A DNA stretch of 34,065 nucleotides from an uncultured Cytophagaceae bacterium. GTDB taxonomy: Bacteria > Bacteroidota > Bacteroidia > Cytophagales > Spirosomataceae. Shown here in pieces: positions 19,766-23,684 of this stretch. The notes below the pieces were generated by a model. That model saw only the letters and a list, made by a program, of their open reading frames with translations, had not been told where the DNA came from and ran no database searches. Numbering within the stretch: the stretch's first letter is position 1; each line of letters starts with the position of its first letter. The stretch lies in contig CALLKB010000227.1 of assembly GCA_938008575.1 (NCBI GenBank), positions 1 through 34,065 of the forward strand. Reading direction: 5' to 3'. Position numbers and translations under genes: made by a program.

Positions 19766-19799
19766 TTGTACTTAAATCCCAATTAATTTATCATTTTTG
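19766..19799 (+). promoter_or_regulatory. Possible promoter for pyruvate carboxylase
   Basis: A -7-like box CATTTTTG (19792-19799, one mismatch to TAnnTTTG) has a TTG at 19766-19768, spaced 23 bases, a little long. The chosen ATG lies 24 bases beyond the box. Confidence 0.35.
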
Positions 19800-19823
19800 T
19801 TACAATGCACTAAAAATATTAGC

Positions 19824-22800
19824 ATGCCAAAATCATACGTTAAGAAAATCTCGAGTCTTCTCATCGCGAACCGCGGTGAAATTGCCATCCGTATCATGCG
19901 TGCCGCTTCTGAACTGGGAATCAGAACTGTTGCGGTTTACACCTTTGAGGATCGCTATTCTTTACACCGTTATAAAGCGGATGAGGCTTACCAAATCGGT
20001 AAGGACAATGAGCCATTAAAACCTTATTTGGATATCGAAGGACTGATTGCTTTGTGTAAGTCCAAAAAGATCGATGCCATTCATCCAGGTTATGGATTCT
20101 TATCAGAAAATGTTGGTTTAGCGCGTCGCTGCCGTGAAGAAGGCATCGTTTTCGTAGGTCCGTCTCCTGAAGCCATGAATGCATTAGGGGATAAAGTAGC
20201 TGCCAAAGTTGCTGCCTTGAAAGCCAATGTACCGATGATCCAAGATTCAAAAGGAGATATGTCGGTGTACGAAAATGCCTTATCCGAAGCCCGCCGTATC
20301 ACATTCCCAGTGATGGTGAAAGCCGCAGCTGGTGGAGGTGGTCGTGGAATGCGTGTTGTTCGTACGGAAGAGGAATTAGAAAAAGCACATTCAGAAGCGA
20401 AAAATGAGGCAAAAAACGCCTTTGGTGATGATACATTGTTCATCGAGAAATTCATCGATGATCCCAAGCATATTGAGGTTCAATTACTCGGTGACCAACA
20501 TGGTAATTTGGTTCACCTTTACGAACGTGATTGTTCCGTACAGCGCCGTTTTCAAAAGGTTGTTGAGGTTGCCCCTTCGTTTGGTTTAAAAGAAGAAACG
20601 AAGCAAAAATTGTACGCTTACGCTTTGTCAATCGGTAAGGCGGTTAATTATTACAATGCGGGAACGGTTGAGTTCTTGGTAGATAAAGATGAAAATATCT
20701 ATTTCATCGAAGTGAATCCGCGTATTCAAGTGGAACACACGATTACCGAAGAGGTAACTGGAATTGATATCGTGCGTACCCAAATCTTGGTTGCGCAAAA
20801 TTATAAATTATCCGATCCGGGTATTTTCATTCAAAACCAGGAAGATATTCCATTGAAGGGTTTTGCGATTCAGTGTCGGATTACCACAGAAGATCCATCG
20901 AATGGCTTTAAGCCCGATTTTGGTACAATCATTGCTTACCGTAATGCTGCCGGTTTTGGTATTCGTTTGGATGAAGGATCATCGTATCCAGGGGTTAAGA
21001 TTTCGCCCTATTTCGATTCAATGTTGGTAAAAGTTTCTGCCAAAGGCCGTACGCTACGTGGGGCCTCTGAGCGTTTGAACCGCGCATTGTCGGAGTTCCG
21101 TATTCGTGGAGTGAAAACCAATATTCCATTCTTGCGTAATGTGATCACGCATCCCGTGTTCCAAGAAGGAAATTGTACGGTTCCGTTTATCGCGAATCAT
21201 CCAGAATTATTTAACATTAAGCCTACACGTGACCGTTCAACAAAAGCTTTACGCTATTTGGGAGAGGTAATCGTGAATGGGAATCCGGACGTGAAAGTGA
21301 AGCCTACTGCTCCTTTCCGTACGCCAATTATCCCTTCAGTGGATGAGTTTGCGGAATTCCCTCGTGGACACAAACAATTATTGACAGAATTAGGACCTGA
21401 GCGTTTCGCGAAACACATTCGCGATTCGAAACAAGTTTTATTTACGGATACAACTTTCCGCGATGGACACCAATCGCTTTTGGCGACACGTGTTCGTACG
21501 CAAGATATGTTGGCAGTAGCATCAGGTTTCGCTAAAACCTTCCCGAATTTATTCTCGATGGAGGTATGGGGTGGTGCAACTTTTGATGTGGCGATGCGAT
21601 TCTTGCATGAATCTCCTTGGAAGCGTTTGGAAGAGTTCAGAGAGGCGATGCCAAACATGCTTTTACAGATGTTATTCCGTGGTTCCAATGCCGTGGGTTA
21701 TTCGGCTTATCCGGATAATTTAATCGAGAAGTTCGTAGAGAAATCATCCGAATCCGGGATCGATGTCTTCCGTATTTTCGATTCCTTGAACTGGATCGAT
21801 GCGATGAAGGTGTCCATCAAAGCGGTTCGTGAGCGCACGCCAGGTATTGCTGAGGCTGCGATTTGTTACACTGGTGATGTGTTTACGAATGAAAAGTACA
21901 ACATGCAGTATTATTTGGATTTAGCTCGCCAACTAGAAGATGCGGGAGCGCACATGCTTGCCATTAAAGATATGGCTGGTTTGTTACGTCCATTCCAGGC
22001 AGAGAAATTGGTTACTGAATTAAAGAAAGCGGTTGCTATACCGATTCACTTACATACGCATGATACAGCTTCGGTTCAATCGGCTACGTATTTGAAGGCG
22101 ATTGAGGCGGGTGTTGATGTGGTTGATGGGGCTTTGGCAGCGATGTCTGGCTTAACTTCCCAACCGAATTTAAACTCTTTGGTAGCGATGATGCAAGGTC
22201 ATCCTTACGATAGTGGTTTGGATTTGGATGCCATGAATGATTATTCCAATTATTGGGAAGCGGTTCGTACGATGTACTTTCCATTTGAGTCGGAATTAAA
22301 AGCAGGAACAGCAGAGGTTTATAATAATGAGATTCCGGGTGGGCAATACACCAACTTACGTGGTCAGGCGATTGCCTTGGGCGTAGGGGATAAGTTTGAA
22401 TTATTGAAGGATAATTATTCGGAAGCGAATAAGTTATTTGGTGATATTGTTAAGGTAACTCCATCTTCGAAAGTAGTAGGCGATATGGCCATTTTCATGA
22501 CGGCAAATAGCTTGTCGGCAGAAGATGTTTATGCCAAAGGTTCTACTTTATCTTTCCCAGAATCTGTGAAGGATTTCTTCAAAGGGGGATTGGGTCAACC
22601 TTATCAAGGTTTTCCAAAGCAATTGCAGGAAATCATCTTGAAAGGAGAAACGGCTTACGAAGGACGTCCGAACGATAACTTAGCGCCGATTGATTTTGAT
22701 AAGGATTATGCGGCATTTGTTGCGAAATTCCCTGACAATGAAGGAGGCTTCTTGGATTACTTGTCATACAAAATGTATCCAAAGGTTTACGAGGATTATT

Positions 22801-23684
22801 ATAAGAATCAAGCTTTGTATGGTGATTTGTCTGCGATGCCTACGCCAGCCTTTTTCTATGGCTTAAAGCAGGATGAGGAAATCATGATCACGATTGAGCC
22901 AGGTAAGACGATCATCGTGAAGTATTTATATATGTCAGACCCTGATGAATCCGGCTTACGAAACATTACGTTTGAATTGAATGGTCAAGCTCGCCGATTG
23001 AAAATCTTGGATAAGAACATCAAGGTTGAGCGTGCCCAACATGCCAAAGCGAAGGCCAAAGGAGATATTGGAGCACCTTTGCAAGGACGTTTGAGTCGTA
23101 TATTGGTGAAACCGGGTGAGGAAGTGAAGAAAAACGCTCCATTGTATGTGATTGAGGCGATGAAGATGGAGTCGATTGTTTCGGCGCCGTTTGAAGGGAT
23201 TATTGGAAACGTAGTCTTGAATGAAGGTACGGTCGTGGAGCAAGAGGATTTGGTATTGACTTTGGAAGAAGCCAAATTGCCAGAACCTGATGTAGAGGAA
23301 TACTTATTCGTATATGGAACTTTGCGTCGTGATTGTGGAAATGACTTACATCGCTTGATCGCTCGCAACTCGGATTATGTGGGCATGGCGACTTATCAAG
23401 GCCAAATGTATCAAGTGGCAGATTATCCGGGAATTATTCCTTCGGATGATGCCAAAGATCAGGTGGTTGGGGAGTTGTACTTGCTTTCAAACACGATCAA
23501 GTTGTTGAATGTCTTGGATGAATACGAGGAATTTGATCCAGAAAGCTCTGAGAAATCCTTATTTATACGTGAGCATGTGACGGTTAAATTAAAGGACAAG
23601 GAAATTACTTCATATGCATATCTTTACAATAAACCCGTTGATTCGAAGAAACGAATTGCTTCTGGGGATTATTTAAAAGGATAA
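19824..23684 (+). CDS. pyc: Pyruvate carboxylase with C-terminal gamma-glutamylcyclotransferase-like domain
   Basis: This 1286-residue protein converts pyruvate, bicarbonate and ATP to oxaloacetate. I start it at the ATG at 19824 (MPKSYVKKISSLLIANRGEI), not the TTG at 19797. In order: biotin carboxylase with the ATP-grasp loop AAAGGGGRGMRVV, a carboxyltransferase barrel starting at TTFRDGHQS (543-551) with the carboxylated lysine Lys715 in AIKDMAGLL, the PC tetramerisation region, and a biotinyl domain with Lys1114 in EAMKMES. Family proteins normally end soon after this, near 1145-1150. Here about 127 more residues follow in the same frame from 1159: YLFVYGTLRRD at the start and SGDYLKG at the end, the pattern of YtfP/GGCT-fold proteins. 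No stop or frameshift interrupts the join. The GDPD-like gene follows after four bases. Confidence 0.96.
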   Translation: MPKSYVKKISSLLIANRGEIAIRIMRAASELGIRTVAVYTFEDRYSLHRYKADEAYQIGKDNEPLKPYLDIEGLIALCKSKKIDAIHPGYGFLSENVGLARRCREEGIVFVGPSPEAMNALGDKVAAKVAALKANVPMIQDSKGDMSVYENALSEARRITFPVMVKAAAGGGGRGMRVVRTEEELEKAHSEAKNEAKNAFGDDTLFIEKFIDDPKHIEVQLLGDQHGNLVHLYERDCSVQRRFQKVVEVAPSFGLKEETKQKLYAYALSIGKAVNYYNAGTVEFLVDKDENIYFIEVNPRIQVEHTITEEVTGIDIVRTQILVAQNYKLSDPGIFIQNQEDIPLKGFAIQCRITTEDPSNGFKPDFGTIIAYRNAAGFGIRLDEGSSYPGVKISPYFDSMLVKVSAKGRTLRGASERLNRALSEFRIRGVKTNIPFLRNVITHPVFQEGNCTVPFIANHPELFNIKPTRDRSTKALRYLGEVIVNGNPDVKVKPTAPFRTPIIPSVDEFAEFPRGHKQLLTELGPERFAKHIRDSKQVLFTDTTFRDGHQSLLATRVRTQDMLAVASGFAKTFPNLFSMEVWGGATFDVAMRFLHESPWKRLEEFREAMPNMLLQMLFRGSNAVGYSAYPDNLIEKFVEKSSESGIDVFRIFDSLNWIDAMKVSIKAVRERTPGIAEAAICYTGDVFTNEKYNMQYYLDLARQLEDAGAHMLAIKDMAGLLRPFQAEKLVTELKKAVAIPIHLHTHDTASVQSATYLKAIEAGVDVVDGALAAMSGLTSQPNLNSLVAMMQGHPYDSGLDLDAMNDYSNYWEAVRTMYFPFESELKAGTAEVYNNEIPGGQYTNLRGQAIALGVGDKFELLKDNYSEANKLFGDIVKVTPSSKVVGDMAIFMTANSLSAEDVYAKGSTLSFPESVKDFFKGGLGQPYQGFPKQLQEIILKGETAYEGRPNDNLAPIDFDKDYAAFVAKFPDNEGGFLDYLSYKMYPKVYEDYYKNQALYGDLSAMPTPAFFYGLKQDEEIMITIEPGKTIIVKYLYMSDPDESGLRNITFELNGQARRLKILDKNIKVERAQHAKAKAKGDIGAPLQGRLSRILVKPGEEVKKNAPLYVIEAMKMESIVSAPFEGIIGNVVLNEGTVVEQEDLVLTLEEAKLPEPDVEEYLFVYGTLRRDCGNDLHRLIARNSDYVGMATYQGQMYQVADYPGIIPSDDAKDQVVGELYLLSNTIKLLNVLDEYEEFDPESSEKSLFIREHVTVKLKDKEITSYAYLYNKPVDSKKRIASGDYLKG

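Follow-up and report, generated by a model that had tools for sequence, protein, structure and literature searches.

Pyruvate carboxylase (PC) of the single-chain type (NF009554 / TIGR01235) is built in the order biotin carboxylase, carboxyltransferase, PYC_OADA and biotinyl domain, and carries a biotin lysine. The gamma-glutamyl cyclotransferase (GGCT) fold is found in GGACT or AIG2-like proteins (PF06094), such as mouse A2LD1 (1vkb) and the human protein (3jub/3juc), and in the bacterial UPF0131 proteins YtfP (1xhs) and YkqA (2qik). GGACT/YtfP-type proteins are widespread in bacteria, and their natural substrates are largely unsettled. The gene described here lies on the forward strand of contig CALLKB010000227.1 (assembly GCA_938008575.1), a stretch of 34,065 nucleotides from an uncultured Cytophagaceae bacterium that was analysed whole and is called the window. 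It shares the domain order and the biotin lysine of single-chain PC and, unlike that enzyme, continues for 127 further residues that form a second domain of the GGACT family. This domain is 20-21% identical to the mouse and human proteins in structural alignment and, unlike them, has Phe at the position of Tyr88 of A2LD1 and sits on PC. YtfP and YkqA are not joined to PC, and YtfP has no glutamate at the LDxxE position in the alignment. Urea amidolyase / allophanate hydrolase (5i8i, 4iss) is similar in that a GGCT-fold domain shares one chain with a biotin-dependent carboxylase, but its domain is only 13% identical, the carboxylase is a different one, and the domain stands at another place in the chain and serves another substrate. 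No title or abstract on a PC-GGACT fusion was found among the papers listed from an open-licence library.

The original prediction, that the frame runs on from the biotinyl domain of PC into a GGCT/YtfP-type domain, was borne out. The frame has no stop from 19797 up to the TAA at 23682-23684, and the true start is likely the ATG at base 19824 (residue 10 of the TTG-start reading frame), which gives 1286 amino acids; ten fused relatives measured 1285-1301 amino acids. Counted from this ATG, the biotin lysine is residue 1114, as had been proposed. The PC domains are complete and in order (NF009554, 1681 bits against a cut-off of 965), and the profile search placed PF06094 over residues 1170-1293 with E = 2e-21 and 77.2 bits against a gathering score of 22.8, which is far beyond chance. 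The features are as follows, with residues in TTG numbering.

19797..23684, forward strand: whole fused gene, open reading frame from TTG, 1295 amino acids, stop TAA at 23682-23684
19824..23267, forward strand: PC core (biotin carboxylase, carboxyltransferase, PYC_OADA and biotinyl domain by Pfam), with the NF009554 and TIGR01235 matches ending at residue 1157
23163..23165, forward strand: biotinyl lysine K1123 (1114 from the ATG), in the motif AMKM
23268..23300, forward strand: conserved linker, residues 1158-1168 (EAKLPEPDVEE), 11 residues long in 79/80 distinct fused sequences and 10 in one
23301..23681, forward strand: GGACT (gamma-glutamyl cyclotransferase, AIG2-like) domain, residues 1169-1295, from PF06094, the structure model and fold matches
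23313..23324, forward strand: YGTL loop motif, residues 1173-1176, corresponding to Tyr7-Leu10 of A2LD1 in the profile alignment
23526..23528, forward strand: E1244, at the position of catalytic-site Glu82 of A2LD1 in the profile alignment
23562..23564, forward strand: F1256, at the position of Tyr88 of A2LD1 in the profile alignment, altered in the fused clade

The fusion is genuine and not an error. When the tail was searched against a protein database, 38 proteins came back, 37 of which carry PC domains together with PF06094, some as fragments, under names that include Aquirufa, Sandaracinomonas and Arcicella; the 38th is an unrelated nematode protein. A second search, started from another genus, returned 26 proteins, 25 with PF06094. 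The tail is also encoded at 34 loci of other assemblies, including isolates (Aquirufa, Sandaracinomonas). One of these loci (L031) is 99% identical to the window in the tail, and the nearest genome in the set compared (G001) shares its genus with G002; the window most likely comes from an Aquirufa-like bacterium. An assembly or sequencing artefact that deleted a stop between two genes has a negligible chance of being the cause, given that 80 distinct sequences, drawn from many assemblies and isolates, share the identical junction, although the pattern by which these sequences were picked itself includes AMKM and YG[TS]L. No ATG occurred in residues 1157-1176 of 51 distinct tails, and the start-like codons found there (TTG at L1161 in 20/51, GTG at V1166 in 22/51) are not conserved, so nothing suggests that the GGACT domain is also made separately. 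Two side observations concern the records themselves. One PC of 1220 amino acids (P0046) lacks a PF06094 match and aligns, at 94% identity, with just 25% of the tail used as query; it is perhaps a truncated or frameshifted fusion. Six loci from records labelled 'MAG: Spirosoma fluviale' (L043, L049, L050, L053, L055 and L056) encode a tail 78-81% identical to that of the window; these look like Aquirufa-type genomes, and the name is doubtful.

In family f1, a GGACT match was present in 213/222 genomes (36 genera). Fused and unfused forms were counted in a subset of 61 of these genomes chosen to span all 36 genera, with PC in 41 and GGACT by profile in 58. The extension, whose frequency among relatives the original prediction had left as a question, was present in 16 of the 41 genomes with PC (frames of 1286-1310 amino acids; genera g1, g2, g11, g12, g14, g18, g24 and g31), and in 16/16 the single GGACT profile match was the fused one. 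The remaining 25 have unfused PC, and 23 of them have a free GGACT elsewhere; by profile, none was found in G129, which is 63% complete, or in G221. Unfused frames measured 1150-1192 amino acids in 24/25, in line with the expectation that PC usually ends just past the biotinyl domain, the exception being a broken frame of 1053 amino acids in G129. In that genome (locus L113) the PC frame is split into pieces of 988 and 215 amino acids. Among the 20 genomes without PC, free GGACT was found by profile in 19 and by protein search in the 20th (G104), so the profile can miss a GGACT copy. One form of free GGACT has an insert of about 30 residues in its middle that splits the profile match (L134:4248-4850 in G115, genus g10; also in G116). 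PYC_OADA was unmatched in 20/61 genomes (genera g5-g8, g17, g22, g23, g25, g27, g29, g30 and g35), and large parts of the family seem to lack single-chain PC yet retain GGACT. Outside family f1, no match spanning PC and GGACT was among the matches listed for 390 genomes from the order and 395 from the phylum; both sets are draws, and a strongly divergent tail could give a fusion a low score. In the search of the 390 order genomes, the E-value moved from 4e-92 for the last fused match to 8e-28 for the first unfused one, among the matches listed.

Phylogenetic analysis of PC (20 rows) placed the 11 fused sequences on one side of a branch with support of 100/100, with unfused PCs of g16 and g32 as their sister (100/99). 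In the GGACT tree (35 rows), the fused tails formed one group (91/94) that adjoins a free copy of g8 (98/91), and the free copies of g16 and g32 came next with weak support (81/75). The fusion of these two known families is real throughout the clade, and the trees indicate that it probably arose once, within one family. Horizontal gain of the domain was considered and set aside, since g16 and g32 stand close to the fused group in both trees, which fits vertical descent. The fused GGACT is the sole profile match in all fused genomes and a free GGACT is present in most unfused-PC relatives, which argues for the capture of a native free gene by PC; from the trees, a single such capture is most likely. 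An origin from an operon found no support, as free GGACT lay beside PC in none of the 23 genomes with both, although draft contigs could hide some cases; the free copy was either on a different contig or separated from PC by 1.4 Mb or more. At the loci looked at, the surroundings of free GGACT vary by genus and were named by eye as QueE-like, YjbR-like, two-component and pantothenate kinase-like.

Purifying selection acts on both the domain and the end of PC, and is less tight on the domain. The median ratio of nonsynonymous to synonymous substitution rates (dN/dS) was 0.048 in the domain, compared with 0.013 in the last ~335 PC residues (103 usable of 990 pairs). At matched PC identity, fused pairs were slightly more alike in GGACT; these pairs are few and related, and no claim of slower evolution is attached to them. 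The catalytic-site list for A2LD1 in PMC2954230 comprises Tyr7, Gly8, Thr9, Leu10, Ile50, Glu82, Tyr88, Tyr115 and Tyr143. In the profile alignment to A2LD1, Ile50 falls within an insert, and the alignment ends ahead of Tyr115 and Tyr143. The conserved active-site glutamate that had been anticipated is present as E1244, at the Glu82 position, in 80/80 fused and 17/17 free rows of alignment A1. YGTL is kept in 80/80 fused sequences, with YG[TS]L being part of the row-picking pattern. In the structure model, the GGACT domain shows the GGCT fold, with a predicted local distance difference test score (pLDDT) of 86-96 by block and 69 at the last residue. The biotinyl part was modelled poorly (mostly pLDDT <50), so the relative placing of the two domains is unreadable from the model. 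From the sequence features, the tail appears to be an active cyclotransferase in which a single pocket residue has changed.

Profile searches for glutathione and glutamyl pathways covered 23 genomes (13 fused and 10 unfused). Glutathione synthetase (GSH-S_ATP, PF02955) was matched in 0/13 fused vs 6/10 unfused genomes, with other ligase families and uptake left unsearched, and GCS2 (PF04107) in 5/13 vs 10/10. Glutathione is therefore an unlikely substrate in the fused clade, and the proposed link between PC and glutathione metabolism gained no support. GCS2 was unmatched in 8/13 fused genomes, and these retain the domain all the same. The 5-oxoprolinase PxpA (LamB_YcsF) was matched in 1/13 fused vs 5/10 unfused genomes, and a coupled 5-oxoproline salvage route received no support. 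Both GSH-S_ATP and GCS2 are rarer in the fused clade than in its relatives, and several fused genomes are small; the scarcity of glutathione-type ligases may reflect genome reduction. In firmicutes, Aig2-family genes are reported beside GCS2-like ligases (PMC2588565).

We favour, with moderate confidence, the explanation that a free GGACT was joined once to PC and keeps a cyclotransferase-type job, its output now tied to that of PC. A stand-alone gene of the GGACT type, which nearly every member of the bacterial family has, would have been joined to the 3' end of the PC gene in an ancestor of the Aquirufa/Sandaracinomonas/Arcicella clade, and the free copy would then have been lost. The PC part would carboxylate pyruvate in the ordinary way, and a short linker of fixed length would hold the GGACT domain to the mobile biotin carrier domain. 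The GGACT family uses a general-base mechanism with release of 5-oxoproline; the glutamate of the fused domain would be the general base, and the alpha-amine of a gamma-glutamyl amide would attack the gamma-carbonyl. A gamma-glutamylamine-like substrate is predicted, and not glutathione; the fusion would be of benefit through fixed co-production with PC rather than channelling. The other suggestion of the original prediction, just a fused accessory protein, amounts to a captured housekeeping gene and explains the sole-copy pattern equally well. Three points weigh against the favoured explanation. The Tyr88 position is Phe in 79/80 fused sequences, whereas 15/17 free relatives of alignment A1 have Tyr there. 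The linker keeps both its sequence and its length, more than a mere tether would need. Finally, no substrate is shown for any relative in the family. The pairing of F1256 with Tyr88 comes from the profile alignment only, and by this pairing the domain lacks the tyrosine of GGACT proper.

The change from Tyr to Phe means that activity or specificity may have changed, and on one alternative the original chemistry is lost or altered and the domain is now structural, in tetramer stability or carrier placement, or carries out another reaction. That outcome is unlikely, as Phe also occurs at this position in 2/17 free relatives, the glutamate and the YGTL loop are kept (the latter partly by the choice of rows), dN/dS in the domain is low, and the domain is the sole matched copy of a family found in nearly all genomes, which argues that its original job is still needed. 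The short linker, of a single length in nearly all sequences, and the lack of an extra free GGACT match in the fused genomes would also suit a functional coupling, in which the domain would sense or convert a metabolite that regulates PC, or would keep the carrier arm in repair, for instance by clearing biotinyl lysines of gamma-glutamyl adducts; mammalian GGACT acts on gamma-glutamyl-lysine. We consider such coupling improbable, because the free gene lies far from PC or on another contig in the 23 relatives (draft contigs could adjoin) and its neighbours, named by eye at the loci looked at, show no tie to PC or biotin. In its boldest form, the captured GGACT would sit where the swinging biotin arm is anchored and strip gamma-glutamyl adducts off carrier lysines, or link the output of PC to a gamma-glutamyl metabolite; the Tyr-to-Phe change and the linker of fixed length would then be signs of this new function. 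This is a long shot.

The fold match to allophanate hydrolase was tied with that to GGACT, so the fold is not enough to identify the reaction. The C-domain of allophanate hydrolase in urea amidolyase acts on carbamate/carboxy compounds, and a similar reaction might be proposed for the fused domain. This is very unlikely, as PF06094 was the only Pfam match to the domain at E <= 0.001, and the solved sequences matched were YtfP, YkqA, A2LD1/GGACT and two designed proteins, and not allophanate hydrolase.

Downstream, the gene at window:23689-24426 begins 4 bases past the stop of the fused gene and has no Pfam match. It also adjoins PC in G002 and G175, and does not in the other fused loci compared that cover downstream DNA; it is perhaps cotranscribed with the fused PC in this subclade.

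Public records named just 'pyruvate carboxylase' can hide the only GGACT of a genome. A clade whose sole matched GGACT is welded to PC offers a natural handle on this family, in that the fused gene sets the time and place of the domain's production and lets the relation between GGACT and oxaloacetate supply be tested directly.
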